A stretch of 64,000 nt of DNA, from positions 3,252,501-3,316,500 of the forward strand of contig WPIO01000029.1 of the NCBI GenBank assembly GCA_009760855.2, given 5' to 3'. Below are positions 2,233 to 41,124 of the stretch, piece after piece (within the stretch, counting starts at the first letter, position 1; the number at the start of each line of letters is the position of its first letter). Source of the DNA: Cristatella mucedo. Lineage: Eukaryota; Bryozoa; Phylactolaemata; Cristatellidae. Made by a program: the position numbers and the translations under genes. The notes below the pieces were generated by a model. That model ran no database searches. It worked only from the letters and a program-made list of their open reading frames with translations, and was not told the origin of the DNA.

Positions 2233-2763
2233 GTCAAAATTTGGTTTCAGAACCGCCGCATGAAGTTCAAGAAGGTCAATTCGAACCGGAGCGATAGGAT
2301 GGGCGACGGAAAGTCCGACGCCGACTGCGGACCGGCGTCCGGCGTTTTCCACGATCGCGGGTCATTCGGCGCGGCGGCGCAGTCGGAAGCCGTCGCGGCG
2401 ACAAGAAGAGACGGCGGCGTACTGGACCCGCTTAACCTCACCGTCAAAGCCGACGGCGGCGGCGGCGGCAAAGTACTCGACAGGGCTAGCCTAAGCTACG
2501 CCGCGGCGGATCCTTACGCAGGCGCCGCGGCCGCGGCAACCGCCGCCGCCTCCGCGCAGCAGCCGCCGCAGGTGCACGGAGTCGACTATTTCTCGAAAGC
2601 GTACTCGTACGGCGCGTACGCCTATCAACCGTCCAACGCGTTCGCGCTGAGCGGAGCGCTTCCCGGCCTTCCTTTTGGCCAATCGGCGCAGCAGGAGCAC
2701 AAGATGTACGGCGGCTATCCGTCCGTGTACAACGGCTATTACGGCTACCACAAGTCCGAGTGA
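2233..2763 (+). CDS. Homeobox gene (ANTP class, Hox-like), last coding exon
   Basis: The exon opens with VKIWFQNRRMKFKKVN, which is residues 45-60 of a homeodomain: the second half of recognition helix 3, with W48, F49, N51 and R53 all present, plus Q50 and M54 as in Hox proteins. An in-frame TAG abuts the exon at 2230-2232, so translation must enter through a splice acceptor there, giving a phase-0 intron after residue 44. The remaining 160 residues are low complexity: a Gly-rich stretch, an alanine tract, then a Tyr/Gly-rich end (YGGYPSVYNGYYGYHKSE) and TGA. The product would be a nuclear, sequence-specific DNA-binding transcription factor. K57-K58 followed by V59-N60 is compatible with a posterior (Abd-B type) Hox gene, while F56 also occurs in Hox3/zen proteins; sixteen residues cannot settle the paralogy group. 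It is not Evx, whose helix 3 reads KVWFQNRRMKDKRQ. Residues 1-44 are not in the window. Confidence 0.9.
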   Translation, partial: VKIWFQNRRMKFKKVNSNRSDRMGDGKSDADCGPASGVFHDRGSFGAAAQSEAVAATRRDGGVLDPLNLTVKADGGGGGKVLDRASLSYAAADPYAGAAAAATAAASAQQPPQVHGVDYFSKAYSYGAYAYQPSNAFALSGALPGLPFGQSAQQEHKMYGGYPSVYNGYYGYHKSE

Positions 2764-3532
2764 GGAGCGAGAGGGAGCGCTAGCGAGCGAGCGCCACTCG
2801 CGGCCGCCGTGCGCTATCCCCGCCGCCAGCGGCGGCGTCCGCCGAGGCAGCCGACGCTGCCGTGGCCCGGCCGAGCGCGAGGCGCCGGCCGCCGCCGCAA
2901 GCGCTCGACGAGCTCAGCTCTCTCGACCTGCGCACTAGCGGCTCGGCAGCGCTGAGGGCGGCGCGCCGGCTGACGAGTGCCGCGCCGCCGCGCTTCGGGA
3001 GGGATAACTCCGGAGCACCAGAGCGAGGAGAGGCGGAGCGGACCAGGAGTGCAGCTGCTGTCCGTCGAGTATCCGTCGTCGCGCCGAAGCGCGGCCTGAA
3101 GCCGCGCGGAGGACGCTCGCCGGCTCGACGCGGCGGAGATAAAGATTGATTTATATTCGAGTCGCGTCTCGGAGCCGACGCGCGATTCAAGAGCCGCCTC
3201 ATTAGCGCGGCCGACGTCGCGGCGCTTACGACAGCGTGCTCGCGGGGCGTAACCGGCGGCGCCGAAGCGATGCGTCGCGCTGCGTCGGGTCGGCGCCGCA
3301 CTCGTTCGAGGGCGACGCCCACAGGAAGTTGCTGAGCCGCGACGCAGACAAGACGAGAGAGCCGCGAGTCCGTGCAATCGGCCGTCGGCTCGCCCGGTCG
3401 CTGCGACCCATCGTCGCGCTGCGACCCATCGTCGCGCTGCGACGCGGCGGCACGAGCGCCGCCGCATCCGACCTCGCCTTCCATTTCACCGGGAGGCACT
3501 GCTGAGAGATGCTTCATCATCCTCCCGCTTTC

Positions 3533-3540
3533 GAGAGAGA

Positions 3541-3626
<86 letters not shown>

Positions 3627-3661
3627 TAGAAAGACCAAGAGAGAGGGAGCGAGAGGAAGGG

Positions 3662-3702
<41 letters not shown>
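3533..3702. repeat. Two (GA)n microsatellites
   Basis: GA dinucleotide runs at about 3533-3621 and 3664-3702, separated by a short purine-rich spacer with a G6 run. Confidence 0.97.
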
Positions 3703-3704
<2 letters not shown>

Positions 3705-3818
3705 CAATCTGCTGCCCCTTTTCCGCGGCTCACGGGCCACGCTCGCTGCTTTCTACGGCTTCAAGCGATAGCTGCTCAAATGCGCAGCGTCACGGTTTTG
3801 GAACAATCTACTCAGTTA

Positions 3819-3824
3819 AATAAA
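3819..3824 (+). terminator. Candidate polyadenylation signal AATAAA
   Basis: A canonical AATAAA about 1.06 kb after the homeobox stop codon, followed by A/T-rich sequence. This is the first good candidate for ending that transcript. Confidence 0.4.
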
Positions 3825-3845
3825 GAACAATTATTTGAATTATAC

Positions 3846-5079
3846 TTATAACAATAGTAAGCTACCGGCGCCATTGGAAAAGCTAGACTCGCTGTTTGGC
3901 TGGAGTACTTATGCTCTGGGCTAGACGCGCTTTCGGCCAGAGTTCGCCTCCGTTGGCGACGAGCTTTCCCGACGCCGAGCGAAATCTCCCGCATGGTCGA
4001 CAGAAAGAAACTTTAGAAAGTTAATAGAATTGATTGGGAGTCGATAGAAGCACGCCGAGGCCTAAGCACGTCGAGATCTCCATTACTCGAAGCTGAAAGC
4101 ACGGGTGGGCTTGCACCCTTTGCACGGTGCAGACAGCTAAATCCGGTTGATGATCGGATGCCATCCGGTTGATGATCGTGTATCGACGTTCGCGACGACG
4201 CATCCTCAGCGCGTCGCTGCTGCTTTTCGGCGGCCGTCAGGAAACGCACGCTCGCGCGCGTTTGCCAACGCCCCCCCCCCAAGGACGAGTGTCGCCGCCG
4301 CCGCCGCCGCCGCCCCCTCCCACTTTCGAGAGAGTCCTCTTCGAATGTCCCTAAGGGCGACAGGCTGATGCCGGAGTCTTGGGCCAGTGCTGCTTGCGTC
4401 GAAGGAGCGGGCAAAGGCAGGATGCTCTATAGGAGCGCCGAAGCAATGGCCGCGCGGAGCGAGCGAGACGCTCGACTCGCAGCGAATTCTTTGAAGAGAA
4501 TTGTTTCTTCATTAAAAACCTCCGCGAGAAGCTCCGCTGGTCCGGTCGGTCGCGCGCCGCCGCGCGTCTGTGCGGACTCGTCGCTGTGCCGCCTCTGCCG
4601 TCGCTGCCGCCTCTGGGACACTGGGCTCCACGACACTGCTCAGGATCGAGCGCGACCGGCCAATAGAAAGTAGGCTGCCCAAAGATCGAACTCGACACCC
4701 TGAGCACGGTGCTGAGAACGCTACAGCAGCCGCCGCCGCCGCAACCGGCCGCGTGGTGGCGCAGCCGGCGCGGTGCTGCTGCCACTGGGCTGCCACATAC
4801 ACACACCTGCTGAGCCGCCCGATGGTGACGAGGCATCACCGAGCACGCACCGGTCAATTTTGTTTAGGGCTAATCTGGTCCTCATCGAAAGGTCCACGTC
4901 GGTAGCTGTTAAATTTGTGAGTGAGTGCAGTTTTGCATGCCAAAAGACTGTAGAGACAACAGGGCTGCTTATTGCAAATCGCGGGCGCCACGCGGAAGAT
5001 GGTGGCCCACCGGGCCGACCATAGCCCCAAAGAATATGGAAGGCTGCGAATGGACTCGTTGTTAAGGGGCGAAAGTGGA
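3846..5079. other. CpG-rich intergenic sequence without a recognisable gene
   Basis: Continuation of the CpG-rich domain. It includes a C10 run near 4270, a short (CCG)n at about 4291-4318 and further GCC-rich stretches near 4728. Several frames are open by composition only. Confidence 0.5.
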
Positions 5080-6290
5080 AAGAGGAAGAGAACTGCTCTC
5101 CTCCATGTTAACAATGACATTCTATGGGGCAACGATGGCGGGAATGTCACTGCCCTAGTTCTGCAAGATCTGTCAGCTGCCGTCGACACCATTGATCACG
5201 ATGTTCTACTTAAACGATTGAGAACAACGATCGGTCTGACAGACGAGGCACTGGCGTCATTCAAGTCGGACTTGTCCGGTCGTGTTCAATCCGTGTCATC
5301 TGGGGGTCAGGTCTCATATACGAGACGGATCACCTGTGGAGTCCTTCAAGAGTCCGTCCTTCGGCCCCTTGCTGTTCTCCATTTATACTTAACCCCTTGG
5401 AAAACTGATTAAGGCCCGTGGAATAGGATAGCACTTTTATGCTGACGATACTCAGCCATATTTGTCATTCAAACCGTCGGAATCAGCTGCAGCAACTGAG
5501 AAACTGGATACTTCCCTTGCCGAAATTCGATCCTGGGTGTCGGAAGACTTCTTGAAACAAAATGACGATAAAACCGAACTGCTGCTCATAGGACACCCTA
5601 AGCGTGTGGCTGGATTAAAAGGCTTTGCTCTTCTAATAGGTGATGATATTATGCGACCATCGCCACGTGCTCGAAATTTATGTGTCGTTTTCGACAGCTG
5701 CCTCAATTTTAAAAGCTTTATTCAGGAGACTGCTTCTATTGCTAGCCATCACGTCCGATCCCTATCAAAGATTAGGAGCTGTCCTCCGCAGTGGCTTGCA
5801 AAAAATTAACTAGCTCCTTAGTTCTGTCTCGGCTTGATCATTGTAATTCCCTTTTGGCTGGGCTGCCAAATAAAGCAGCTAGGCCACTGCAGCTGACTAT
5901 GAATATGGCTGCAAGGCTAGTCTTCAAGTCCCAGAGGCTTGAGCACGTGTCTCCTTTGCTAAAAGAGCTAGGATGGATGCCGGTTGAGCAACGGATACAG
6001 AGCGAAGTTCTTACGCGGATCCACAAGGCCCGTCACGGCTTGGCTCCTTCGTACCTAGCTAAACTGCTGCACCAGTTTCAGCCTCTTCGCGCCCTCAGGT
6101 CCTGTATGGACAATAAATTAGCTGTTCCATTCCTCCACTTAAAGACCGTTGGCCCAAGAAGCTTTAGTGCTCTGCAGGTCCTAGACAGTGGAAGCCGCCT
6201 CCACAATTCTTACGCAGCGACAACTACTTTCCTGCTGCCGACTATGGCTCATCCGGCTGTCTTGCATCTTGGCTGGAGCCAAGTGAAGAA
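5080..6290 (+). mobile_element. LINE family A reverse transcriptase pseudogene
   Basis: A degraded non-LTR retrotransposon of the CR1/L2-like type. Conceptual fragments include LSAAVDTIDHDVLLKRL (RT domain), the catalytic YADD box (5438-5449), NDDKTELLLIGHPKRVAG and LGWMPVEQRIQ. The frame changes at least twice and [10 protein letters not shown] has decayed to GVLQESVLRP. Truncated at the 5' end; immobile. Confidence 0.92.
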
Positions 6291-6330
6291 GATGCTTTGC
6301 TGCTGCTAGCCTTGTACTTGGTCGTGGGCC

Positions 6331-6362
6331 GGAGAGAAAGGGAGAGAGAGAGAGAGAGAGAA

Positions 6363-6398
<36 letters not shown>
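6331..6398. repeat. (GA)n microsatellite
   Basis: GA dinucleotide run with two GGG interruptions, immediately after a LINE family A fragment. Confidence 0.95.
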
Positions 6399-6399
<1 letters not shown>

Positions 6400-7640
6400 A
6401 GTCTGTTCCGCAGTGGATTGAAGGATTTCAGCCTCTGCCACGGAGCATAGCAGCTGCAGCTGCGGGTTCGAGGATGGCTCGGCCTTGGGAGGAACCGTGA
6501 AGAAGATGCTTGATCCGTTAGGCAGATGGCGCGAAGTCCCGGCAACCGATGCTAGGTCGCTAGGCCTCAATGTGCCTGACAATCCTCTTCGCTTCCTTTG
6601 GGCCTGAATCGACTTTGCTGACCTATAGGAGTACTGGGCAGGCTGGTGCACACTATTACGCCCGCGGCGAGTCGATCAAGGGCAAAGACAAGTGCAGTAT
6701 TATTAAAGACAGCAGGACTTAACGTGGCAGCTCCTGCCCGCCGATAGTTGCGTGCCACTTTCAGCAGGTCCATTCGCGTCTGGGCCTTATCTAATGATGA
6801 ATGACTGAACGATGACTGGCAATGTCTGAACTCAGCCGTTAAGCAAGGATGGCGGAAAAAAGCCTCCCGATTGTTGCAACCACTTAGCTTTGCACGTAGA
6901 AAGCTCTGGCTCCCCCCCCCCCCCGGAGAATTATAGAGCGACCGAGTGCCAAACGTGCGTACTTCTCAACAAGTGTGATCTAACTTCTATGTCTTCAGCT
7001 ATCTCTTCACACCAGATTGATGGTAGGAAAATTTAAAAAGAGCATTATTTTTTGTCTTTGCCGCTGCTGTCACGCACAGTTCAAAAGGGGGTCCAGTCAA
7101 GTTCTCTTTCGCTGTAACCCAAACGAGCAGTGAAAACTGAAATTTATTTCGCAGAAAACAACGATTGGATAAAAATCTTCGCCCTTGGGTCTTAGCGGGG
7201 GGGGGGGTAAGGTGCTCGAACTTTAGCACCCGAGCTGTGGATTTGAGCCCTGCAGCCGACAGTCCTGCATTTATTTCCCTCAGCAAGTTCGGCCTACACA
7301 GGCGCCTGTAAGGGTCTTTATGGCTGTATGGAGAAAAGACGGCTCCTTGAGGGTAGCTCCAACATGGCGCCACCAAGCCAGTGTACGCGCAATGTGTCCT
7401 CGCCTGCGAATAATGCCCTAGGTCATAAATATCCACGATCGCCTAAGGATGCTGAGGTGTACTGCAGCGTCGTCCTTATGGGCGACGCTGCACCGGTAAC
7501 GATCCATCTTTGTTTGCCCTCCTAGGATCTGCAAAAGATTAGAAATTCTTTAAAATTAAGCTAACTAAGTATATCTGCTCTATAGAGCCAGAGAAATGTG
7601 ATGTTTCGGTTCATTCAAGTCACACCTAAGAATCCGCTTA
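6399..7640. other. Intergenic sequence with a decayed SINE head
   Basis: No gene seen. A C10 run lies near 6914 and a G11 run near 7197. At about 7200-7265 a tRNA-like head (AAGGTGCTCG followed by GATTTGAGCCC) resembles SINE family 1 in plus orientation. Confidence 0.4.
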
Positions 7641-7644
7641 CAAG

Positions 7645-7760
7645 GCTTCGGTATTGCATACCCTTGGGCTGTGAGTGCGCTATACAAAACTCTCCTGCGT
7701 AACACCCACATGGTCTTTATGACTTTGTGGAGTTACAGACGGAGATACATAACATAGCAT
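7645..7760 (+). mobile_element. LINE family A 3' end
   Basis: The terminal non-coding segment shared with the copies near 18240-18345 and 49850-49925: GCGCTATACAAAACTCTC, then the ACACCCAC...GTCTTTATGACTTTGTGG segment and a GTTACAGACGGAGATACA end. Confidence 0.8.
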
Positions 7761-7865
7761 TGGCAAGGTTATTTCAGTTGATGGCTCCGAATTATGGGTG
7801 TGCTGATTAATACCACCCGGCGTACTACAACCAACCAAGGCTTTTAAAGTGGTAACACTATAAAA

Positions 7866-8000
7866 AATACAATTAATTTCGCATTGTGCACTAAGAGAAC
7901 TTAATCTCTATCCAAGCGCTTTACATATGCCACAGGACTCGTGTCCACGACTGTGGTTGTTATAGGCGAGCATCTTACTTCTCGGCCAAACCAGGGTGGT
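7866..8000 (-). mobile_element. SINE family 1
   Basis: Minus-orientation copy. The LINE-B-like tail (AGAGAACTTAATCTCTATCC) comes first, then a decayed tRNA-like head ending near GGCCAAACCAGG. Confidence 0.65.
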
Positions 8001-10479
8001 GTTATACATCAGCTAGTGAGAAAGTCCCGCAAAGCTGACATGTCTACGTTCGTCTTTCACGGGCGCCATCACTTGATGACCTTTGAACTCATTGCGCTCG
8101 CTTGTCTGCCGATCAAAACGTACTGCTTTCGTTAGTTTTCTGTTGTTGGGCCCGCTGGCGTCCCTTAGAAAGCGGCGCCGATGGCACAGCCACTGTGCAC
8201 GAATCAAGATCAGGCAAGACATTGTCTTCCACGTCGGCCAACAGGGTATCGCACGAGTTGCACCTCAACGCCAGAGACATTTAAATTTCGTAAACGTAAT
8301 AGAGACGTCTCGCGAGATCCGTCGCGTGAGCCTAAAGAAAACGCCGCTGGCTGCGGTACTCAAACAAGACGGCAGCACAAGACGATCGCTCACATGCGAT
8401 CTTAACTCAGTAGCGTTTCCTGCAGCGTTTCTCGGCGCCGCCGTCGAATCACTGGCAAAGCGGCAGCAAGGGATGCAGCTCCGCGAGCTTCGGACGATGC
8501 ACTCCGCACTCGGTTACTCGATGCCAGCATCGAGGGAACATGGTTGAATGCACTATGGCGTACACAGCCGCCCGTCGCCGTTGGAACGAGAGGAGCAGCT
8601 TGGCGAGCAGGTGCTACTGCTGCTGCTGCTGCCGCAGCCGCCGCCGCCGCCGCCATTGCTGCTGCTGCTGCCCGCTGCCGCCGATGCTGCTGCCGCTGCT
8701 ACTGGTTAAGTCTGTGGATCGCTCGACGCGAGTTGACCGTCCCGCCAGGCTTCCAATTTCCTTCTCGTTAAGAAATGGCTCGTCGGTCGAACAAGGATGA
8801 ACTGAGAACAAAATGACTCGCCAGAGAAACACCCACTTAGACCCTACAGAGCGTAATTACATTACATTGAGAGAGTGAAGTCGTCGCAAGCTCGTCGATA
8901 AAAGCTTTCCATTTTTCTGGTAGACACACTGAAGCGTCTGAGCACGATCCATGTCTACGAAGCGAAGTGCGTCTACGAAGGCGGCAGCCGCCATGCTTTT
9001 TTGGGTCTTTTCCCGATTGGTCGGCTGCCTCCCAAGTCTCTGTTCTTCTGTCACCAAGAAGTAGACAGCGCGGCTATATCTTCTAACCCGGCCCTCGAGA
9101 CTCGGATCCTACCCGTCAGCCGCCAGTCCCCCGCCCCTTACCGGTTAAAATCAATGAGGCAAATGATTCTGGACAACTAGCATAAAACGGAAGTACTGAC
9201 AGAGGTACCATAGTCTGGGCAAGTTTCGTTCGTGCTCACGCCTAGATCTCCCAGTTTAGCCACTTACTGGCTGAGAAAGTAAACATAGGGATTGATATTT
9301 GGGCCAACAAATTAGTACTTAATCGACAGCAGTCACCTTGCAAATACCATGAATATGTCAAGATTGATTCATCCAGTGAAGTCGTTTGCTGAAGGTCTGG
9401 CTACCGATGGGGCCACGGCTGCTGGCATTACTTTAATTATTTTTTGTGAGGTCACAGAGAGAAAAATTCGGCATTGCACATCATTATACTCGTTTGCAGC
9501 AGCTAAATGCTGCTTAGACAATTAAGCAATTGTAGAATAAATCTGGCTTACATGTTGTCACGACTACCCAACCCTATCGGAAAAAATTCATAAAGATGAA
9601 GCAGAAAATTGGTCTATTATCTGTCAATCCTGAGATAGTAATGCAAACTTCAGTAATCACGGGTCGGTAATGCAAAGGCTGACTGGTCATCTGCAAATAA
9701 GATAGACAAAAACACAAATGCAGCACCAACCTGCAGCTGTTCCGCAGTCTCAAGGCTAAGACCTGTCGTTGCACTGATGCACCTGCTTATGGCCTTAATC
9801 GCGGCACTCTCTTCATCCCGAATCCAGCCACTGAGTTGGTGCATACCCAGCCACTGATTGCATGCAACGACAGGAAATAGGAAGATGTACAGCACACCGA
9901 GCCTGAACGTTCGCCCGCGTGGGGCGCAGCTTTAGCGCGATGCAGAGAAAGAACGACTGGCTTGTCGACGTTGCTTGTCAATCGACTGGCGTAGATTACG
10001 TGAGCACCTGCTCGCCGCGTTGTCGAGAGTCAAGAAACGCTAGCAGTTGTGGTAGCCGTCGCTTTGGCATGAGACATTTGGTCGTGCGACGTCGGCGGGT
10101 CCGAGTGGGCATTCCTCCGCCGCCAGGCGAGCCGCCAGCGCCTCGCAGTGTCTGTCGCGAAAGGCCTCGTGTTAAGGCGAGCCGGCGTCTCGTCAAACCA
10201 CCACTCGGCGCCCGCTAGCGAACGCCTGTCGGCTCGTTGCTCCCGTGAGCCCTTTTACAGGAGACCCGGGTGGCAGCTAGTGGAGCCGTGCGTCAACGGC
10301 CTCTTTTCTAATGGACTTTCTAATTTTGGGATCCCAAAAGCGGCAGATTTCGTAGCGGCACCTGGAGGGTATACATGCGGGATCGATCCATTAGAACGGT
10401 TCTCAGCGATCGCTCTCGACACTCAGCCCGACTAGACGCGGCTCCAAATGATGCCGAGCTCAAATGTGGCTCGGTGACT
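8001..10479. other. Intergenic sequence with a CTG/CCG trinucleotide repeat
   Basis: No gene recognised. 8613-8704 alternates (GCT)n and (GCC)n trinucleotides. The polyalanine, polyglutamine and polycysteine frames there are repeat artefacts. Moderately CpG-rich around 9990-10260. Confidence 0.45.
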
Positions 10480-10600
10480 AAAAAAGAAATAAACTACACC
10501 CTGAGCGCGACACGAGCCCACGACCTCGGTCGTTAAATATATTCACCTTGACCTTGGTCAAGGCGAGCACCTCAACCATCGGGCTGAGCCAGCGGGGACG
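10480..10600 (-). mobile_element. SINE family 1, decayed copy
   Basis: The reversed tRNA-like head is visible: GAGCCCACGACCTCGG, then GGTCAAGGCGAGCACCT and GGGCTGAGCCAGC, as in the copies at 36534 and 50594. Confidence 0.65.
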
Positions 10601-13600
10601 AAGGATGCTAGCATTCAGCAATCCCATTAAATAAATGAGCTACTGACTAAATTTATTATCGTCGTCCGAGACCTGTCTATGAGTAGGCTCAAGAGGACAT
10701 TTTTAATGTGACCTTGACCATGGCGAATGGTCTCAGGACTAGGATGGCTAAAGGGCGGTAAGGTGCCAAAGCCGGGGCACTTCCATTCCGCTTCGGTCCG
10801 AGGGAGTGGGTTGGGACTTGCCGGCCCCCTTCGTTATGCCTACGGTCTGCATACAGTGAGTTCTCACTGAAACTGCGGCATGCTAAATCACCCTGTCTAT
10901 GACTGCCTAGACATTTACGTATTATTCGCGGTTCCTGAATTGTAACGGTTTCGAACAAGTTATGCGATACTCCACGATTAGATAGCAAAGCCGAGGTCGC
11001 GAATTAGGCAGCCAGTTGTGCCTTGCTGTATGTAGCTCGGCTGAGCTGTGCTGCTCTAGACTTTGAGCCGTACGAGAGTTGTTAAATACACGCCATGACC
11101 GGAAATAAATGGAAGCACGTGGCCCTCCGGTGCTGACGTCCAGGCAGATCTGCGCGAGGGATATGAGTTTTCCCCATCTTCGTTGCTGCCGCGCTTCGCT
11201 GCTTTCGGCATGTCGACCTTCGTGTCGACCTTGGCGCTGCACCTACGCTAGTCGCTAGCCGCGTAAAAAGGTTCCAGCTTGGCCGGGATTCGTCGTGCGT
11301 CAGCGAGGACTAGCAACGTAACGAGCACTGCGTTTGCGACCTAGTTCTGTCCAGATTGGGAGCCGGCTGCATACCCTTTGCGACTGTACCGTAGTGAACC
11401 ACATTGTATCTGCACACAGCACTAATGATGCGGCCCTCGGCTTGATGGCCACCGGGGCCCGCCGCCCCCCCCCCCGCCTCGACCGCCGTCTAACTGTCCT
11501 ACCGCCGATCTGCATATCTGCTGGCATAGAACGAATGAGCAACGCCTACGTTAGACTGCGCTGGTGATTCATTATTATAATAGCGAGAGACCATCTCGCC
11601 CTCCCCCGTCACGACGTCTGGGCTAAGCCGCGATTTGACTGCGGTCGCAGACCTGAGGTTCGACACGAAATTCCCGCGCTTCCCGCTTTGCAGCAAATGT
11701 TAAGCGCCTAGAAAGAGATTGAGTTCTTTGAGGGCGCTGTATCAAGTGCATTATTATTATTATTACTATTATTATTAATACAAACCTCCCGCTGCGGCAG
11801 CAACGCCCCGCCGCCGCGCACGTCTGGAGGACGAGTTCAACCGCCGAATCAATTATGGCGGTTCTGGAAGCTTATCCATATCAATGGTCGGCGCTTGGCG
11901 CCTCGAAGTTTATGTTCGAGCTTGAGTCGTCTGCTCGAGCTTAGTTAGACCGTCCGGTCAGCAGGTCAGCAGGAGAGTCGAGTGCAGTGTGCACAGCACC
12001 CGCCAGCTGACCGCTGGTGCTCGTCGCCTTGTTGTTCTTCATTTTGAACAGTGACGACTGTGCATGGGCGGGTAGGCACTGAGCGTACCGCGGACGAATT
12101 GGCACGCTGCTTGCTTTCGCGGTGCACCCGAGCAGTAGGGCCCGGACTACGGTGTGGCGTGGTTCGAGTCGTACCCGTGTCTGGTCGAGTTCGGTCAATG
12201 CCATTCTACGCTCAGGTCTCTTTCTAACGGCCCTCGCACTTTCGGAGCGCTTGCAGTTTACTGGAGCGAAAGGAACGCAAAGTCGAACATTTACCTCTTT
12301 AGCTAAGACCTAAAATGATGCGAAGTCAGTGCAGATGGTGACAGTAGCCAGATGCCGGTTCCAGACTTCTCGTACAAACGAACTGAGGCCCGATCGCCAA
12401 AAGACTTCAATTTAGCGTGAGGACGAGGCGAGATGAGGACTGGCGGCCGACGTGCGAGTAGCGTGAGGCTGCACTGGAGGAGAAGAATGAGGTCAAATAG
12501 GCAGGCTGGTGAAAGCGACCTGCAAGCCTGAGAGAGGATTTTGAAGTCGATTAGATGCTTGACACGTGATCTCTCCTGTTTCTGGCTTGGGTTCTTCCTT
12601 CAAAGCCGCATCGCAAAGCTGGCTGCTACTACTCTGCTTTACGACGCCACTGCATTGCTACATCCGCTGCTACCACTTACTCGGATATTCTCCTGACTCC
12701 GATCTCTCTGCTCCCCTTTTTTGCGTCCGATCCTCGGGCTGCTGGCTGCTCGATTTCAAACCGAAGGGCGCCAAGACACACCGAATGCGCTAAAGAAAAT
12801 ATCTAGCCCAGCACCAACTTAGTCCTCACGGCTTCGTGGGCTTACAGACGCTGAAACAGACCCAGGCTCAAGGGAACACGCACACATGCACACGGAGGTA
12901 CATACGGCTGGACACCTGGTCGCAATTAAAATTGGATGTCACCCGCCGCCCCCCCCCCCCCGCTTGCTGCAGGCCATTACTTTCGATTGGTTCTTTCTGT
13001 GTTTTCGAGTCGAAGACGCGAGCCGGCACGTACACACAGGCAGACACACCGTAACCTCTCAACAGTGTCAAACCGAGGCTCACGACCCATTCGTGGGCCA
13101 ACGGTCGTGCGTACACTCACTCAGTCCTCGTGGCTTTGTTGAGCTACAGACGGGAGATACCATTTGAATTTGAATTGGTGACGTGGACAGACTGAAGCGT
13201 AGTCCGCCGTTCGCCAGTACAGCGATTCCTCCCACACTTCGGCCGCTGCCGCTGTGACACTCGAGGTGGCGCCCTACGGAGATCCGTTGTATCGTCCTGC
13301 TTCTTTTAAGCTAAGCACCGGATGAGCTGCCCGTGCTCTTTGGGCGAGCAAGTCTGCACTCAGACTACATACACCTGTAGGATGCCGATGCAGGTGCCCT
13401 CCCTCCCCTTCCCCCTTGCTACGACGCCTACGGTTACTGGACCAGAGAGCGAGGCCGACCAAAACGAGCCACGCCCGGCCTATCAGCAAGGCTTCTCGAT
13501 GCATTCGTCGCTCTTGGCTCGAAGGAGCTCAGTTTGAGCAGAGGTCGAGGCCAAGGACCAGGAGACCACCGCCGAGGCATCTCTTTACGTTCGTCAACGG

Positions 13601-14055
13601 GCAAGAGGCATCTTGATGAAAGCATGGCCACTGGCAGCAGAGCTGCCGGCGCGCGAAGCTCGACCAACTGAGCCCTGGCCAGCATCGCCTCCGCCTCCGC
13701 CGCCGCCACCGCCGCCGTCCATTAGCAAGCCGACGTCGGAGCCGCTCGCCAGTCGATCCGGGCAATTTCGTCCATTCTTCGTCAATTAATCGCTTGCCTA
13801 TTGCGGGCAGTCACCCGCAGTCAAATTTATGCGGCGATCGTCTCCGATGGGTCTGCGAGATTGTCCCACTGGCTCCTTCTGTCGTCGCAGTCTATGGGTC
13901 GCATTAATGGCGGCCGGCGGCGTGCCTATCCCCCGTCTCGTAGGCAGTCTGGGATATTGTCTACGTCGAACTGTGTGGACATTTTCAGCTTACTTCCTGT
14001 GTGAAGATCATTCTTGGCACGCAACGGAAGTCGGGTGATTACCGAAGAGGGTGCG
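10601..14055. other. Intergenic sequence with repeat shards
   Basis: No gene recognised. A LINE-B/SINE tail with (ATT)n is at 11695-11775. C-runs occur near 11464 and 12950. LINE A 3' shards (CCTC..GGCTT...TTACAGACG) occur at about 12820-12855 and 13115-13160. A CCG/GCC trinucleotide run is at 13685-13720. Confidence 0.45.
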
Positions 14056-14059
14056 AACT

Positions 14060-15110
14060 TACCACGTAATGTAATGTACATATTTCTGTCTGTAACTCCA
14101 TCAAGGCGCACGGACTAAGTGGGTGCTACGCTGGTGAGTTTTCGGTAGCCTAAGCGGCTTTCGGTGCTCATGCGGCAGCCAGCAGACTCGATCTCGTCAT
14201 GCAAAGAGAGCGCGATAAGCAAACCCGAGTCGAGAGGGTATTCGAGGAAGTGAATAGCATTGATGTAATAGCTCACGTTTGCTGAAAAGGTGCGCTGCAG
14301 TCAGCAGCAGGAGAGAAGATGGCGTTGGGTAAGAATTGTGGAAGTGAGTTCCACGGTCAAGGAGCCCTCGGATCAAAATAATCAGCCGCAAGCAGTTTGC
14401 AAGCTAATGGACGGAGCCCTTAATTTATTGTCCGTTAAGGACCCGAGAGCAAGAGGAGACTGAAACTGGCACAGCAGTTCATTAACGTATGGAACCAAGC
14501 GATGGTGGGCCATGTGAGTCGAAGTAAGAACTTTACGCTGCATCCATTGATCGAGCGGGAGCCATGGCGGATCCTTCAGCAAAGAAAACACGTGGTTTAA
14601 CCTCTGGAATTTATTGACTAACCTTGCAGTCGTATTTATCCCCATCTGCAGAGGTTTAATGGCTTTTGTCGATTACCCCAGCCAAAACTGGGTTACATTA
14701 GTCTAGCCCAGACAAAACCAGTGACCAAATAAGACTTATAGCCAGGCACCGTGATGGACAGTCTCTAATCTTAGACAGGGATCGAACGTCACGCGTAGCT
14801 GCGGAAGCGGTCTTTCGTATGCAGCCTTCAAACTGTAAGCATTTTATCAAAGGAGACGCCAAAATTCGGAACACATTATGATAACCACCATACAGTATCA
14901 CCCAATTAGAAGTGCAAAGTCTTCTCGCCCAGCCGTACGCTATGAGTGTGTACGAGCTCGGTTATAATATCGCTTAGGAAGAAAATTGGCAGATGTCCCG
15001 TATCTAACTTTTTCAAGGCAAGCATTCAGTTTATCAGTAGTTTGAGCTTATGCTAACGATTTAAAGTACAAGTACAGCTGGGCATCGTCAGCATTGAAGT
15101 AGTAGCCGAT
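14060..15110 (-). mobile_element. LINE family A, decayed copy
   Basis: Minus-strand fragments match the family A C-terminal domain: SLLKDPPWLPLDQWMQ, DNKLRAPSISLQT and VRSLSKIRDCPSRCLA. Many stops and frameshifts. The 3' end carries GTAATGTAATGTAC (minus strand TTACATTAC). Confidence 0.85.
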
Positions 15111-15659
15111 TCCTTGGGCCCGAATGAGTTTTCCGAGATGCTCCGAAAACTAGCCGACAACTCTCTAGAGAGAGATTCGGTGTTTCTAGCTCGTTTAGGG
15201 GGCCGGGAGAGGGTTCGAGACCCCGACGCAGCTATGCAAAATAGCGAGAAGCCGGCAGGCAGCGATTTTCAAAGACTGCTGTGGGTCGAGTTCGAAATGG
15301 CGTGTGGCGACCTGTTTAGAGTTGTGCACGGTCGAGAGTTTGGAGCTGCATATAGCCCCGACAGCATTGCAAGGCAGATAATGAAAAATAAGTAACAAAC
15401 CAAGCAGGGCTCCTAAGTGACTCGAAGTGTCTGCTTCCGTTATTTTTTCCTGTTGGAAGCTTTCGAGGCAAGCGAGGCTTGTCGGTGCCCTCAAGTGAGT
15501 CTCTGTATTACTGCCCAGTAGCAAGCGGTCTATAACCCTCGAAAAAGCCACAAGCTCAAATATCTTAACGATGTTAAATTTGCCGTAATGAACATATTGG
15601 TGTGTGATAAGATAATAAAGGAAACCATTGCGAAGCGTACGCCGATGATCTTTGGCTTT

Positions 15660-17875: not shown

Positions 17876-17879
17876 GAGT

Positions 17880-18954: not shown

Positions 18955-18989
18955 ATAAATATTAGCTGATTTAACAGCCTAATTTGTAC

Positions 18990-19830: not shown

Positions 19831-19839
19831 AGAAGAGCT

Positions 19840-19985: not shown

Positions 19986-19999
19986 CTCTATTACCTGCA

Positions 20000-34300: not shown

Positions 34301-37300
34301 AATCCTTCATGACGTCGTACCTGCAAACTCGGCTTTGATGTGCCAGCCATTGTGCTGGCGTGTGCAGTGCTCAGACCAGAAATCGTGCTTAGCTTTGCCT
34401 GCCCATCACTGCATCGTAAGCAAACGTCGTGCTCTCATGTTTTGGATGTGTGTAGATTGCTGCTGTGGTAGCTGCTGCATTACCATCGCCATGTCAACCG
34501 TAAGGCCTGTGATCAGCAAAGGTCGTATTGCATCGACGTTTCAGGGTTCCAGCAAGCACCTCGACTGCCTATGCCGAGACACGTGCCTCCAAGGGAACGG
34601 TCGGCTATGGACAGGCTTGTCGAGTATCTTGTTGGTGATGGACCAAACCAGCGTTATGCCCTTATCTGTAACCAATGCCTCTCACATAATGGAATGGCCT
34701 TAAAGGAGGAGTTTGAATATCTCAGTAAGTGATCTAGCAACTTTCTGAGCTACCAATCGGCTGTATTGCTCGTCAAACTGTTGCATTGTGTAGTATGGTA
34801 GCATTCGTAGAGTGGTCACTCTGGCTTCCTCTGAGACACTTTTTATGTTGTCTGTCAGTCTTTTGTTATAGCTGCTTAGCTCTTCATTATAGCAGAATGC
34901 TTTCGGCAGAACAGTAGTACATACTTTTTTCTTTTTTTACTGACTTTCATTATTTCTTGACATGGTGACTCGCCGATTTTTGGTTGGACTTTCCACAGAA
35001 AGTGCAAAATGAAGTCAGTTTTCATATTCTTATATGTGCTGCTTTGTGTGGCCCTGCCCAGTACTTGAACTTGTAGTCAGCCATTCATTCTGCCAGAGCC
35101 TAAGGTTCCGAGCTCTCTTCTTAGACAACACTGCTACTGTGAGGAACGCCTGAGTAGTTATTGAGGCGTACCCAACGATGTGGAAAGCAGTGCCGTCGTA
35201 TGGGAGCCATCAAAGAGTAGTGTATGTCTACTGTTTCTTAGCTCGAAAGATAGAAAGTGAGTTCACTGCTTTGAGAGCTTACAGCTGAAGCATTTAGCTT
35301 GGTATCCCTTTTTTGGACTGGAAGCGCCATTGCAGCCCATCTAATTGTATGTATGCATGTATGTGTTTATGTTTGTATGTGTGTATGTCACTGTGTTAGA
35401 ATTGTGGAAGTGAGTGTCACAATCTAGGACACTTGGAGCAAAATTATCTATGACCAACAATATTTAAGTAAGAGAATGGAGCTCAGTTAGTGTCCTAGGG
35501 CACCAGGAGGTTGTAACTAGGAAGTGGTTGGTGTTATGTATGGAGGAAGGAGCCCAGCTATGGCAGACGTTATATGTTAGAATTCAGAGTAAGAATTCTG
35601 TTCTCTGGGAGCCGTGGCAGCTATATGAATCGCCTTAATGGCGTTTTTTAGGCAGCCCTGCCATTCCTGAGGTACTTAAGTCTAAAGACAGCCAGGAAGT
35701 CAGGACAATGCCAGACACAGCACTCTGTGAGTAGCCCCTGATCATGAAAAAACTTAAATCGACATCAGGCAGTGGAAATGGCCCCTCGAATACAACATGT
35801 AAATGTCAGGCTGTCAAAGAGGATGCCTAAATTAGGAGCACCCTACGATGATGGAATCATCTGGATCAACCATCATCGTTAACGTGACTCATACTGTCTG
35901 CACCATGCACTAATTCGTTACTTGAATTAATTAACTGAAACCGAAATAGTCTAACCCTGTGAGCGCGTTGTGACCTTGTATGATCACCGATTAGACAATG
36001 GTGCAACGAGCCACTCACCCGCAGCACCCGATTTTTCTAAATGCAGTCATCGTGTCGATAGACCATGCTAGTAGCTTCTGGACTCACTTTGTTCAGACCA
36101 AAATTTGCGTTGTACCGTACCGTAACGTAACCGTTGGTGACCATCCTGCCAACCGGCTAGCCGGCAGAAGCATAGCCAATCGGCACAAGAGTTAATTTAG
36201 GACTCGGTGGTATGCTTCACATTATGTGTGGAGCACTAGGTTCCATCGATATGATTTATTTGGCAACGAGCCAATATAAGAAGCTAGTATGCACACGAGG
36301 CCAATCAATGACGTGTAGTGCTGTGCTGCAATCCCAAGGTCTACAATGTAAATAGGCTGCCGTAACTGTCACCTGGCCTCGATAAAGCAGGAAGCTTTCG
36401 GTGGCCAATAGGCTGTCATTTGTCAGGTGAAGCGGTCCTTATCGATTCATTCTCAGGTCCAAACCAGTCGGCTGTGGAAGGATTCTTTGCCTGGCCACAT
36501 GCGGAAAGCCGACTCTTTGCTGCCAACTTTATATAATAAAAATATAATTCGTTTATATAGCGCCCCAAGAGAACTTCATCTCTATTCAGGCGCTTCACAT
36601 ATGCCTCAGGGCTCGAGCCCACGACCTCAGCCAGACCTTGGTCGGGGCGAGCACCTTATCCGCTGGGCCAAACCAGCTCGGCAACTTTGTGACCACTACA
36701 CTATACCAACATTGGCTACTAATTGGTCTTTTCTGTTTCACTAGAAGTGATAAGCCGAAATCGGCTAATAGTCACCGTGTATCACCGGGTGACCTGTTGC
36801 CGATTTGTGGTCACTGATTTTCCAGGCAGGTCTTAGCCATCCATGCTGTCCCCACTCACGACTTACTAGACCTTGGATTTGGTCTCATGCAGTGATAAAA
36901 TAAATTAACAATAGAACGAAAGACGCCCTATAGCTGAAAACGCATGCAGAATCAAAGAATCTTTACCCTTGACCCTCTTTTCTCGTGACATTGGTGTTCT
37001 TGTTTTCGGGTTGAATGATTTGGGTCTTACTTTCGAGTAGGATTCGACGTTGTGACCCCCACCCCCTTAGTTTTTTAAGATTCTACTTCTCGAGTGGTTC
37101 CTGACCGCTGTCTTTGTTCTCTTTTGACTCATTAGACATTTGCTCTCTCCGAAGCTAGCCAAAGTCATTGCTTCGGCTCACACTCGGCTTCTGTTGTGGT
37201 CTGTGCTAGTGTTTCCACTTCCGCTATGCTGAAGCCCTGCGGCAGCCTGCTGTTGCCACCCTTCTTCCTTAGCAACCATCTATTCTTAGCCGCGCTCTTC

Positions 37301-40300
37301 TTACCTGTTGCCTCTGAAGTTGTTGTGGCAGGGTTGTACTCGGCTCGGTCACTCAGCCAACGCTAATTATCAATGCCACAAATGTTCTTTGAGTAGTTTT
37401 GTCGACCGACGGATTTGTTCGAGCACCATCAGTTGACGGTTGGCCATTTCATTGGCAGGTTTCAGGTGCTGCTATTGCTACGGTGTAAATCACGCCAGAA
37501 AGCAGCGGCCCAACGCTCCATTGCTGGAGCTGAAGCCGGCGCTCCGCGAGGCGGACAGCTCGCATGATGAAGAGCTTGACGACGATGAAGGGGCCATCGC
37601 CGGTGCTGCCAACGGCGCATCCGAGTCGGTTGAAGAAGACTTTGGCAACGATGGTGATGGGGAAGGTGTAGTGAGTGAGGACATTGCACACGGTGGTGCT
37701 ACGGATGAGCAGGGTAACGATGAAGCAGGTGAGAGCATGTGTGCACATGTGTACAGGCGCCAGAGCACAATCGCACTCGTGTTGGCGTGCACGTGTTTGC
37801 CAGTTTTCGTCTGTATGGATGCATGCTTGTGTTTTGGTAAATGTGTGCATCAGTTGCTGCTGTTGCTGCGACCACTCCTGTCGCTGGCTCTGTTCTATGC
37901 CACCCATGCCACTGCTAGTGTCTACATCAGGGGCACCCGTTGCTTCTTGCCTTTGTACGTGGCCATGTTAAGGATCGGTCGTTTGGGGGAGGGGCTAGGC
38001 CGTCAAGTCGACTTACACTCGCTGCTGCATCGTGCACCGAGTGCTTCAGCCTCACTCAGAAAGTGAGATGGAGAGAATCGGAGACAGCTCGACTCCTCCT
38101 TGTGCAATCTCGGGCAGAGTAGAGAAATCTCGAGCGCCCCACTGCAAGATGGTCAGCACTGATCCGTGTAGCTGCGCTGATGATGCACTGCTCTGCGTCG
38201 GTATAGAGACTGAGCATGGAGTGCAAGCCCCTGTGCTTTAGGCTTTCCCTTGGTGTTGTTTTTGCGCAATTAATGCATGGAGTCTGGGAGATTTGAGCAC
38301 GAAACCGGTCTCAGTGTCCGTGCAATAATGGTTAGTGGGCATCTTCCTTAGCAGAGCCGGTGCTTTTTTAATCCTAATACAACCGTTAGGACGTCTTTGT
38401 TGTCGGTCTAGTTAGTAGACATCCTTTAAAAAGTGTGCTGCAGCCTCCGACCCTCCCTCGACGGAGCTGCACTCTCATTCGGTAGCTCAACTGATTAGGC
38501 ATGTGCTCCCCCCCCCCGATCGCAGATGGTTTGACTCCGATTGGGAAAGTTAGCCTGGATCTGTCCTCAGAATCTCGACGTAGTAGTTATTTTAAACCGT
38601 GACCGAACTAAGCACAGACCATGTCGAGCAGGTTGTGCTGTGTGCAGGGCATCATTAAAGCAGCTGAAAACTGTTATGCTTTGAATGCAGTGGCAAGTCT
38701 TAAATCTTAACTCTTATTGCTAGCTTACCCTGTAGACAAGATGCCACAATGCAGCCCCTTGTTATATTTGAGACCTCTTTAACAGATGCAGTCCTCCGGG
38801 AGAGCTTAGACCTACTACTGCCTGTAGGCCTTCGCTCTGTCAACGATTGGTCAGCTGCTCCTTGCCTCCCTACTTCCTATAGCTCGGTGCCCCCAGTTCG
38901 TCCTGCCACTTACTCCCTGAATTAGTTCAAAAGTAGGCTGGAAAGCTTGCCTTTTTGTTATCATCTTCAGGGTTGATGGATTTGATCACTGACCTACATT
39001 AATATGACAGTCCCTCCGGTCGTAGTGCATGTACTTTCATTGTCCACTATTGTACACCTCAGTTAATCGTTGTTAGTTTGCCTGGGCTGCATTTTTGTCC
39101 ATTTGGACGAGCTTTGGCCGTTGTACTTCTTCTTAAAGGCAATATGCCTTTTACGATTGTCAAGTGGCCGTGCAACCCACTGGGTTTTGCCGTGCTGTGC
39201 AAGCCCGTATACATCTATTCATTCACTAATGCACAGGCGGACAAGTCGATCAGCTTAAAATGTCGATCTCCTTAGATATCTTTGGTGTACCTCTGATATC
39301 AGCCTATTATCTATGAGTTGACTTTGCTGTGTCGAATGCAGCAGGCCTCGGTAATGGGACTCGGCGAAATTATTTTCTAGCTTCATCGGGGATGTTCCAT
39401 GTGTGTAACAGATAAGAAAATGCTTTTCTTGAAACTATTAGTGACAAGTCTGCCAACCCAAAAGCCTAACAACTCTTGGTGAGCGAGCCTTGCTGCCTCG
39501 TGCCACCATCAGTTGGGCATCGTATGAGATGCCCAAGCTGGTCAGACGTGGCAGTAATAACCTTGGCAGTCAGCAATGGCGAGGCAGGCAGCCATGTGAG
39601 TGTACCCTACTGTCCACCACCAGGCTTGTCACACTGCTTCTCAATGGACTAGTTGTACCAAGGTTTTGAGTGAAGCCGCTTTGTTCGTACTTGCAGAATG
39701 TTCAATACTGGTTCTCTGTGTGCTGTTTAATCGTATCACCCCCAATATGTAACGGCTCGCCGATTTGGCTAAGAAGATTTGACCTATAAATGCAAAAGCC
39801 GTGATAAGTCAACGGTCGTTATGCTGGAGAGATTTTCGTTTTGACAATTTGATTTATGCACATGATCAGTGCCCGAAATTCTACATCTTGTGCAGCAAAG
39901 TAGAATTAGAAGCATGGCTGAAATATGGGAGCAGTCGGTGAATTGGCAGGGGGAGGACATTGACGTTAGCAGTCTCTAGCGAAATGAGCTGCTCATCTGT
40001 TACCCTCAGTCGATTGTGAGCAAGGGGAGGTTGATACTGCTTCAGCAGTTCAATAAGGTACAGAAGTGACAAGCCATGGAGGATCTTCAAGAAGTTCACC
40101 GCCGTAGAAAGATTTTCACATGAGCAGTGTTGCCGCCTCTCTTGTAAGACTGCTAGTTGTCGTTTGGGGTCTGGGTTAAAGACATATTGCTTTGTGTAAT
40201 TGTGTCCTTTTCGAACTAGAAGTGCAGCTTTTGCTGCAAAAGCTTAGCTGCTTCTTTCCGTTTATGCTTCCTATTATAAATCGACGGCAGCATATGGCTT

Positions 40301-40692: not shown

Positions 40693-40768
<76 letters not shown>

Positions 40769-41124
40769 TCACTCCGCTGTTTAGTGGAGCTGAACGCCCG
40801 ATTGAGCATCCTAATAAACTGTTCAGTTCAGTTAGTGGTCAGCATGCCAGCATTAACGACAGTGACCACTAGCCTTCGGTGTGTGAGAACACTGCTCTTG
40901 AAGCCCCGATGGGCTTCTAAGGCTGTGTTCATTTTCTTTTCTCTTTGCGTCGGTTCGCACGCGTGGTACTGGTTATGCTAACGAGCTAGCTCCACTTGGC
41001 TGAGTGGCCAGTATCGTGCTTCGACTGTTATCTTGTAGTTGCTTCAGCCGCAGGAAGCGTTGAAGCTCGACTCCCTCAGGTGACCGAGTCAGACGGAAGT
41101 GCAGATGCCTCGACCGTCAACTGA
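22321..41124 (+). CDS. LNPK: Lunapark, ER three-way-junction protein (whole gene, 11 coding exons)
   Basis: Joining eleven exons (22321-22347, 26119-26160, 26422-26612, 28170-28228, 28336-28376, 30790-30876, 33024-33090, 33450-33608, 34545-34724, 37459-37728, 41054-41124) gives 1194 nt, 397 codons plus TGA, with every intron phase matching and GT-AG at every junction. Lunapark proteins stabilise three-way junctions of tubular ER; both termini face the cytosol. Seen here: Met-Gly start (possible N-myristoylation), coiled-coil 10-41, membrane segments about 42-65 and 72-99, second coiled-coil 101-149 (EEVMEKETYKKAKEILEKFD is nearly identical to the vertebrate protein), a Pro-rich linker 160-240, and a zinc finger with C266, C269, C288 and C291 containing SHNGMALKEEFEY. 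An acidic tail follows. Vertebrate proteins are slightly longer (about 430). The LNPARK motif reads VNHARK. Introns hold LINEs, SINEs and a GA microsatellite. Small extra exons in the long introns cannot be excluded. Confidence 0.95.
22949..23077. repeat. 65-bp direct tandem duplication
   Basis: TAGCCTCTTTTGAAACCGCG begins at 22949 and again at 23014; the two 65-bp units differ at about one base. Confidence 0.97.
24310..24625 (+). mobile_element. LINE family B 3' end
   Basis: The last codons of the ORF are decayed (FAFSSHAPKP-like), followed by the 3' UTR with GTGCTGATACAGTGCATG repeats and a TAGAAAGGGATTTAGTTCTC...ATTATTATT tail. Confidence 0.85.
25198..25640 (-). mobile_element. LINE family A 3' fragment
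   Basis: On the minus strand: MNNKLAVPFFHLKTVGRRCF, PRLWNSLPQFLCNDNYS, then the 3' UTR. The terminal repeat is a pentanucleotide (plus strand TGTAA repeated, 25200-25224). Confidence 0.92.
26119..26160 (+). CDS. LNPK: Lunapark exon 2 (RSKSTVEILEDIDK)
   Basis: Acceptor TTGTTGCAG and donor GTCAGA, phase 0 at both ends. The 14 residues match the STVEVLE.IDKEI segment of vertebrate lunapark; the following EI is supplied by exon 3. Confidence 0.9.
26422..26612 (+). CDS. LNPK: Lunapark exon 3 (first membrane segment)
   Basis: Acceptor CTCATAG, donor GTGAGT, leaving two bases of a codon. It encodes EIELRRKLRQHNLHLQRK, the hydrophobic segment YAVGLVLYSAMVYIGVGIFL, and the start of the second membrane segment (FCAIPFLLFPPL). 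Corresponds to residues 24-87. Confidence 0.95.
26675..26850 (+). mobile_element. SINE family 2 in lunapark intron 3
   Basis: tRNA-like head with an A-box-like segment around TAGATAAGGTGG and a perfect B box GGTTCGAATCC (26744-26754), then a body with GTGATAGCCGTAAAGGCTC and a tail ending AGGCTGTTAAATTAGC. It is not a functional tRNA gene. Confidence 0.85.
26851..28169 (+). other. Remainder of lunapark intron 3
   Basis: Unassigned intronic sequence with pyrimidine-rich stretches; no coding exon other than exon 4 downstream. Confidence 0.6.
28170..28228 (+). CDS. LNPK: Lunapark exon 4 (second membrane segment)
   Basis: Acceptor TTGGTTTCAG, donor GTTAGA. One base completes Leu87, then IWMLRKLLHWYFVRRIENN, and one base starts residue 107. 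Matches the vertebrate segment IIWSIRTVIIFFFSKRTERN in position and character. Confidence 0.93.
28336..28376 (+). CDS. LNPK: Lunapark exon 5 (coiled coil)
   Basis: Acceptor CTTTGCAG, donor GTAAGT. Encodes DSALQELKEKKKSL, equivalent to the vertebrate NNEALDDLKSQRKKIL; ends in phase 0. Confidence 0.93.
28430..28466. repeat. Short (AC)n microsatellite in lunapark intron 5
   Basis: An imperfect run of about 37 bases of CA dinucleotide with one CGCG interruption. Confidence 0.9.
28800..29358 (+). mobile_element. LINE family B 3' fragment in lunapark intron 5
   Basis: Reads KVLSLTFRSLH-like residues (LNVLSLTFRSLHYLAPTYLS), then LLPNQARHRTTHSSGSD, followed by the 3' UTR with three CATGNTGACAC/CACTAACCAT units and an ATTATTATTATT tail. 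Confidence 0.9.
29360..30789 (+). other. Lunapark intron 5, 3' part
   Basis: A/T-rich unassigned sequence. No further repeat family or gene recognised. Confidence 0.55.
30790..30876 (+). CDS. LNPK: Lunapark exon 6 (coiled coil, most conserved block)
   Basis: Acceptor CTTTTTAATGTAG, donor GTAGGA, phase 0 at both ends. The 29 residues begin LEEVMEKETYKKAKEILEKF and continue DPEQFKKLE. This is the block from which I recognised the family. Confidence 0.97.
31105..31560 (-). mobile_element. LINE family B 3' fragment, decayed
   Basis: Reversed tail (ATAATAATAACAC, TATAGCACTATAAGAGAAC) and 3' UTR, continuing to a decayed match of the coding end (GCATACGAACTGAAGG compared with GCATACGAACTAAATG near 19330). 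Confidence 0.65.
31561..33023 (+). other. Lunapark intron 6, unassigned part
   Basis: No repeat family or gene recognised apart from exon 7 that follows. Confidence 0.5.
33024..33090 (+). CDS. LNPK: Lunapark exon 7 (linker)
   Basis: Acceptor TTTGCTGCAG, donor GTATAC. Encodes NANIEESAGIPL then STPLRLPPGT and one base of residue 172. PPGT joins exon 8 DLRRR, equivalent to the vertebrate RPGQEIRQR. It is the only acceptor-donor pair I found here that closes the frame. Confidence 0.88.
33450..33608 (+). CDS. LNPK: Lunapark exon 8 (proline/glutamine-rich linker)
   Basis: Acceptor CATTTGCAG, donor GTAAGA, phase 1 in and out. Encodes DLRRRPVGGGG and a Pro/Ser/Gln-rich low-complexity linker ending PMLPPHLQGHP, residues 172-224. 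Confidence 0.9.
34545..34724 (+). CDS. LNPK: Lunapark exon 9 (zinc finger, first half)
   Basis: Acceptor ACGTTTCAG, donor GTAAGT, phase 1. Encodes RSAMDRLVEYLVGDGPNQRY, then ALICNQCLSHNGMALKEEFE and YL. These are the hallmark residues of the lunapark domain. C266 and C269 are the first zinc ligands. Confidence 0.98.
34725..37458 (+). other. Lunapark intron 9
   Basis: Contains a TATG-rich microsatellite (35345-35393), a decayed LINE A 3' fragment on the minus strand (35395-35660: ATTGTGGAAGTGAGTGTCAC, TTTAAGTAAGAGAATGGAGC) and a SINE 1 (36534-36690). Confidence 0.65.
36534..36690 (-). mobile_element. SINE family 1
   Basis: Near-complete reversed copy: tail TTATATAGCGCCCCAAGAGA, B-box region GGGCTCGAGCCCACGACC, then GGTCGGGGCGAGCACCTTA and the 5' end GGGCCAAACCAGC. 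Confidence 0.85.
37459..37728 (+). CDS. LNPK: Lunapark exon 10 (zinc finger, second half, and acidic tail)
   Basis: Acceptor TTCATTGGCAG, donor GTGAGA. FRCCYC supplies C288 and C291, followed by YGVNHARKQRPNAP where vertebrates have FFLNPARKTRPQAP. The remainder is an Asp/Glu/Gly-rich, probably disordered tail typical of the family. Confidence 0.93.
37729..41053 (+). other. Lunapark intron 10
   Basis: Holds a decayed LINE A fragment on the minus strand (39885-40110) and a (GA)n microsatellite (40695-40765). The rest is unassigned. Confidence 0.55.
40695..40765. repeat. (GA)n microsatellite
   Basis: Pure run of about 71 bases of GA. Confidence 0.98.
41054..41124 (+). CDS. LNPK: Lunapark exon 11 (C-terminus and stop)
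   Basis: Acceptor TTCAGCCGCAG. In the required phase it reads GSVEARLPQVTESDG then SADASTVN and TGA. The sequence is low complexity, so the assignment rests on the phase, the acceptor and the expected short acidic end. An additional small exon in the 3.3 kb intron is possible. Confidence 0.75.

Follow-up and report, generated by a model that had tools for sequence, protein, structure and literature searches.

A probable proboscipedia/Hox2 exon at the anterior end of a bryozoan Hox cluster piece, with lunapark downstream

We analyzed a stretch of 64,000 nucleotides of Cristatella mucedo DNA, called the window below, which corresponds to positions 3252501-3316500 of contig C221 in a genome assembly of 572 Mb and 688 contigs. 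The last exon of a Hox gene lies near its left end, and lunapark (LNPK) follows on the same strand. Taking the anatomy and the names together, we are confident that this spiralian genome has its Hox cluster in two pieces and that the window covers the anterior (3') end of one of them, ending with the last exon of proboscipedia (pb/Hox2) and with lunapark downstream; this judgment concerns the arrangement itself, and the cause of the proximity is treated separately. A preliminary description of the window had proposed a Hox-type homeobox gene and lunapark, and both were confirmed by matches to the Pfam Homeodomain family, to PF10058 and to LNPK exons. The homeobox exon is as follows.

2233..2763, + strand: last exon of what is probably proboscipedia (pb/Hox2), an anterior Hox gene; it encodes homeodomain residues 45-60 and a C-terminal tail and stops at TGA.

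This open reading frame encodes 176 amino acids, namely homeodomain residues 45-60 and then a tail of 160 residues, and an AG acceptor stands directly before it. Against the Pfam Homeodomain model it scored 17.9 bits (E 0.0027) over residues 45-58. The score is under the curated cut-off of 22.9 because just 14 residues of the domain lie in this exon. Over residues 45-58, the part of the homeodomain that was compared, the exon has a recognition helix of the Hox type (ANTP class). When the exon was searched against its own genome, it found itself (E 5.2e-113), and the remaining seven of the eight matches had E values of 0.2 or more.

The preliminary description had also proposed that the assembly be extended leftwards for more Hox genes. 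This extension succeeded, and a second group of Hox genes was found on contig C665. The homeodomains located are listed below; the type names are our reading against known families.

C221:3113969, + strand: Lox5-type homeodomain with a KLTGPN flank, which we take to be a Lox5 marker; 141 kb upstream of the window gene.
C221:3223651, + strand: Hox4-type homeodomain; 31 kb upstream of the window gene.
C665:11633496, + strand: Post2-type homeodomain, from the genome homeodomain search.
C665:11746971, + strand: Lox5-type homeodomain, from the genome homeodomain search.
C665:12041927, + strand: Hox4-type homeodomain, from the genome homeodomain search.

The whole-genome homeodomain search gave at least 91 matches, with 150 of 167 candidates scored. 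Of these, 47 were retrieved for closer reading, the 24 top-scoring ones among them. Homeodomain readings were obtained from 40 of these 47 (all 24 best included), and the remaining seven were under the threshold of a small custom model. The window gene is thus located in a Hox cluster, on the same strand as the Hox4-type and Lox5-type genes of C221. Along the direction of transcription, the order on C221 is Lox5, Hox4, the pb-like gene and lunapark. This run places the window gene at the anterior end of the cluster piece, and lunapark lies beyond it.

The layout of the bryozoan Hox cluster has already been published. According to the text of PMC10675955, C. mucedo has two Hox scaffolds, [Post2, Lox5a, Dfda] and [Lox4, Lox5b, Dfdb, pb], as well as two copies of Cdx, and its pb gene has two introns and encodes 309 residues. 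As compared by description, six of the seven published Hox genes have counterparts here, and the order, the split between two contigs and the two Cdx copies agree as well (PMC10675955); here the Cdx-like genes were found at two loci, L062 and L071. On the second published scaffold, Lox5, Hox4 and the last gene have the same order and grouping as on C221, and the second piece here holds Post2, Lox5 and Hox4. A flatworm like Macrostomum, which the doubled Hox4 and Lox5 and the presence of Cdx had suggested at first, agrees far less well: a 34-base stretch of the M. lignano spliced leader (PMC8629364) had no match at up to two mismatches, which counts against M. lignano itself but not against flatworms in general. 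In chaetognaths the set of Hox genes is different (PMC12460157). The window gene stands beside Hox4 at the end of the cluster, which is the place of pb in the published layout. From this position and from the gene structure described next, we consider it very probable that the window gene is pb.

Hox genes usually carry a hexapeptide containing Trp-Met (W-M) upstream of the homeodomain. Such an exon, AFGWMKERKTKM, with the motif AFGWMK and a consensus donor at its end, lies between the Hox4 gene of C221 and the window, about 4.8 kb upstream of the homeobox exon of the window. W-M hexapeptide frames are also found upstream of the homeodomains of the C221 Lox5 (IFPWMR) and Hox4 (LYPWMK) genes. 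We infer that AFGWMKERKTKM belongs to the window gene as its 5' portion. The pb/Hox2 gene would then consist of three exons, that is, the hexapeptide exon, an exon for homeodomain residues 1-44 that is unreadable here, and the window exon.

The lengths can be considered as follows. With one or the other possible start, the candidate first exon of pb has 84 or 90 whole codons, and the last exon encodes 176 amino acids. The share of the middle exon in the published 309 residues is then 49 or 43, and residues 1-44 need 44 or slightly more. Counting the unseen middle exon, both the summed exon lengths and the number of introns would fit the C. mucedo pb, which has two introns and a protein of about equal length (PMC10675955).

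In comparison with the proboscipedia/Hox2 genes of other animals, the window gene shares a hexapeptide flank of the WMKE type, an intron between homeodomain residues 44 and 45, and a place anterior to Hox4. It presumably encodes an ordinary Hox transcription factor. As in the family at large, helix 3 (VKIWFQNRRMKFKK) would read DNA, and the W-M hexapeptide would bind a PBC cofactor.

Several observations weigh against the assignment to pb. The residues V47, H56 and R58, which are diagnostic of pb/Hox2, are absent, and the window gene has I47, F56 and K58 instead. Its helix departs from the pb consensus at three of 14 sites and is nearer to those of Hox1, Hox9, Hox10, AbdB and Dlx2. The hexapeptide of the candidate exon, AFGWM, is without the proline that is usual there. 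Scanning the interval between Hox4 and the window gave nine W-M matches, and AFGWMKERKTKM was picked from them because of its frame, its donor and the surrounding sequence. PMC10675955 places Lox4 on the same C. mucedo scaffold as pb, but Lox4 was not found here; a Lox4-type query gave 51 matches, of which those on C221 were just the two known genes. Homeodomain residues 1-44 were unreadable, and the comparison covers the recognition helix. Because the diagnostic residues are absent, the label stays at "probably pb", based on position and structure.

The preliminary description had called for recovery of the N-terminal exon of the homeodomain. This was without success: a six-frame search of the readable sequence with the HMMER filters off, in which rows with E above 0.5 were counted as chance, gave only the two known genes, a result that says little, as some of the sequence consists of N.

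The comparison of the recognition helix with those of known genes leaves room for other names. The helix is identical at 13 of 14 sites to each of Hox1, Hox9, Hox10, AbdB and Dlx2, at 12 of 14 to Hox3 and Hox4, and at 11 of 14 to Hox2. The top match in the PDB was Hox-A9 and the next was Antennapedia, and since only the recognition helix was aligned in these matches, they do not decide which Hox gene this is. If the window gene were a posterior Hox gene, as its likeness to Hox9 and AbdB, the match to Hox-A9 and the intron at 44/45, which also occurs in AbdB-type genes, might suggest, then a posterior Hox gene would stand beside lunapark as in vertebrates. We regard this as very unlikely, because the one-strand order of Lox5, Hox4 and the window gene on C221 continues anteriorly, the Post2-type gene of this genome lies on C665 with its homeodomain intact in one frame, and a W-M hexapeptide exon is in place. 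It is scarcely credible, too, that the window gene belongs to the ANTP class outside Hox, as Dlx does. The Dlx2 helix differs from its helix at a single site, and Dlx genes have an intron at 44/45, but a Dlx-like exon for homeodomain residues 1-44 was found on another contig (C111, locus L058), and the window gene has the position in the Hox cluster and the hexapeptide exon.

A Hox1 identity was first argued from the agreement of the helix at 13 of 14 sites. It was set aside as less likely in view of the hexapeptide flank WMKE.KT and of PMC10675955, whose text identifies no bryozoan Hox1; Hox3, Scr, Antp, Lox2 and Post1 are likewise described there as not identified in bryozoans. In the present genome, no reading of the Hox1, Hox2 or Hox3 type was found among the 24 best of the at least 91 homeodomain matches, and a Hox1 query against the genome gave no new place.

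Lunapark is a membrane protein of the endoplasmic reticulum that acts at three-way junctions. It is the next gene recognized downstream of the Hox gene and lies on the same (+) strand, with recognized exons from 26125 to about 38066, as follows.

26125..26163, + strand: short exon of lunapark carrying the motif STVE(I/V)LE of the N-terminus, from a motif scan compared with human LNPK; boundaries approximate.
26422..26612, + strand: lunapark transmembrane exon; aligned with human LNPK over 62 columns at 29% identity (E 5e-5), with splice signals.
30790..30876, + strand: lunapark coiled-coil exon (LEEVMEKETYK..); 72% identity over 29 residues, with splice signals.
34545..34724, + strand: lunapark exon with the first part of the zinc ribbon; PF10058 at 58.3 bits, 71% over 56 residues, with splice signals.
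37459..38066, + strand: lunapark exon that continues the zinc ribbon with its second part and holds an acidic tail; 64% over 22 residues, with splice signals; the right limit given is where the open frame ends.

The zinc ribbon, the transmembrane region and the coiled coil of lunapark are thus all present. The score of the zinc ribbon (PF10058) compares with a cut-off of 24.2 bits, and this family had one match in the whole assembly and none in 14 control genomes. Human LNPK aligned with the window in four exons in order (26422-26607, 30790-30876, 34559-34726 and 37461-37526) with plausible splice signals. The same search also gave many low-complexity, proline-rich matches, some with E values no worse than those of the two weaker exons, and these were set aside.

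Both genes lie on the + strand and the 5' end of lunapark faces the Hox gene, in agreement with the preliminary description. The distance of 18-20 kb given there was not reproduced: from the Hox stop (2763) to the first recognized lunapark exon (26125) we measured 23.4 kb. This is because the first exon of lunapark was not found; a motif scan of 2800-26500 gave no convincing candidate.

We then compared the locus with the HOXD-EVX2-LNPK neighborhood of vertebrates, of which the preliminary description had suspected a relic. The likeness is that lunapark neighbors a Hox cluster and turns its 5' end to it. In vertebrates, however, lunapark flanks the cluster posteriorly and metaxin 2 flanks it anteriorly, whereas here lunapark is at the anterior end. 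In the HoxDb cluster of a cichlid, for example, lnpb lies upstream, and mtx2 lies downstream of hoxd4b, as described in PMC2080641. Moreover, Evx does not stand between the cluster and lunapark here. An Evx query gave 35 matches, the two best of which were on C55 (73% identity) and C507 (71%), and those on C221 and C665 were the known Hox homeodomains. The leftward extension for Evx accordingly gave the Hox4 and Lox5 homeodomains alone on C221. As the best Evx matches are off C221, the posterior trio of HOXD, EVX2 and LNPK is not present. Thus, of the old linkage that had been suggested, the neighborhood is real, but an ancient relic was not shown, the vertebrate lunapark being at the opposite end of the cluster.

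Four further HOXD-side genes or families were sought genome-wide, namely Evx, metaxin, the OLA1 family and the CIR1 type. The metaxin search, with a cut-off of 28 bits, gave two weak matches, on C376 (30.4 bits) and at C665:6623062 (29.1 bits), and this family was also matched in four of the 14 control genomes. The match on C665 is nearer to MTX2 than to MTX1 (38.1 against 20.8 bits), and that on C376 is about equally near to the two (30.0 and 31.2). The second Hox contig thus has a weakly matched metaxin-2-like exon, which is not adjacent to the Hox genes but 5 Mb away. Matches to the OLA1 family (C111 and C3) and to the CIR1 type (C22 and C624) were all off the Hox contigs. The region C3:158518-158769 holds a full-length YchF C-terminal domain in an open frame of 366 residues, and this contig is perhaps a bacterial contaminant.

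The proximity of lunapark to the Hox gene would be explained most simply by rearrangement, whether or not the two once shared an ancestral chromosome, rather than as a conserved HOXD-EVX2-LNPK block. With uniform placement, a given gene has a chance of 0.00086 to fall 35 kb or less from one of seven Hox genes (seven is the number in C. mucedo; six were found here). If its place on either Hox contig is taken as given (together these make up 3.05% of the genome), the chance is 0.028. Both figures are rough, because genes are unevenly spaced and the choice of lunapark followed the sight of the window.

It is quite possible, though we stop a little short of adopting it, that lunapark came to lie beside the Hox cluster by chance and that the resemblance to HOXD is a coincidence. 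C. mucedo is named among highly rearranged genomes in the text of PMC11371463, the other HOXD-side genes are dispersed, and once a gene is on a Hox contig the chance is 2.8%. The uniform chance of less than 1 in 1000 speaks against coincidence for a gene named beforehand, but lunapark was not so named.

Alternatively, lunapark and the Hox cluster may have been close in the bilaterian ancestor, and an inversion of the cluster in the bryozoan lineage may have turned Hox2, instead of Evx/Hox13, toward the 5' end of lunapark. A single inversion of the cluster alone, with lunapark fixed, would yield the observed orientation. The low uniform chance would agree with this, as would the metaxin-2-like exon on the second Hox contig, since mtx2 forms the other flank of the vertebrate HoxD cluster (PMC2080641). 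We nevertheless consider such an origin rather unlikely, in view of the best Evx, OLA1-family and CIR1-type matches off the Hox contigs, the weakness and distance of the metaxin match, the high rearrangement of this genome (PMC11371463), and the lack, judged by title, of any on an invertebrate Hox cluster among the papers found with lunapark and Hox. The placement of the HOXD-side genes weakly favors a common ancestral chromosome but gives no backing to a tight ancestral linkage. It is doubtful that a tight linkage of lunapark and Hox older than the protostome-deuterostome split was kept in this rearranged genome with a flipped cluster, which would make lunapark a very old bystander of the Hox regulatory region.

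If lunapark were such an ancient Hox neighbor, it would serve as a landmark for tracing flips of Hox clusters and would bear on whether the regulatory domains flanking Hox clusters predate vertebrates. In any case, the locus now supplies a bryozoan-type pb gene together with its downstream neighbor. The word lunapark does not occur in the main text of PMC10675955. Among the papers listed, no invertebrate pair of lunapark and Hox was found by title, although it may be reported elsewhere: the papers on lunapark and Hox clusters were all on vertebrates by title, and no title among those on KIAA1715 and Hox concerned the Hox cluster of an invertebrate.

The rest of the window was also surveyed. 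The interval between the two genes is as follows.

2764..26124, no strand: Hox-lunapark interval; 24% of it recurs at other places within the 264 kb examined, and it has broken reverse transcriptase frames resembling long interspersed nuclear elements (LINE) by eye.

A LINE-type reverse transcriptase (PF00078, 64.5 bits) lies at 48715-49494 on the + strand. The frames 5432-5809 (+), 19320-19871 (-) and 63505-63999 (+) gave no reverse transcriptase match and look by eye like parts of a LINE element. None of nine chosen open frames in the window and its right flank matched a Pfam family, and the window gave no tRNA gene and no Rfam family at gathering score. A tblastn search over the 264 kb with pieces of ATP5MC3, ATF2, HNRNPA3, MTX2 and Evx found the Hox homeodomains and one chance match alone.

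In the left flank, Rfam was run on 14 of 15 loci (140 kb). The sole match was a fragment of eukaryotic large-subunit rRNA, so there is no mir-10 there. The fragment (L016:9375-10000 and L004:1-734, on C221, minus strand) lies within the Hox4-type gene, between its hexapeptide and homeodomain frames.

Some further homeobox sequences were observed in the genome. A decayed copy of a Lox5 homeobox is found at locus L081 (C664:413634-414634, minus strand), with frame shifts and a readable KLTGPN-like flank. It comes directly after a fragment that resembles, by eye, a LINE reverse transcriptase, and the element may have carried the copy there. Emx-like genes are present at C332:9453673 and C188:550424 (L066 and L068), which makes another pair besides Hox4, Lox5 and Cdx. 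Finally, C74:112605-160035 and C566:5842-15612 hold an array of homeodomain exons with similar scores, which mostly cover profile positions 4-46 and many of which are about 4.8 kb apart.

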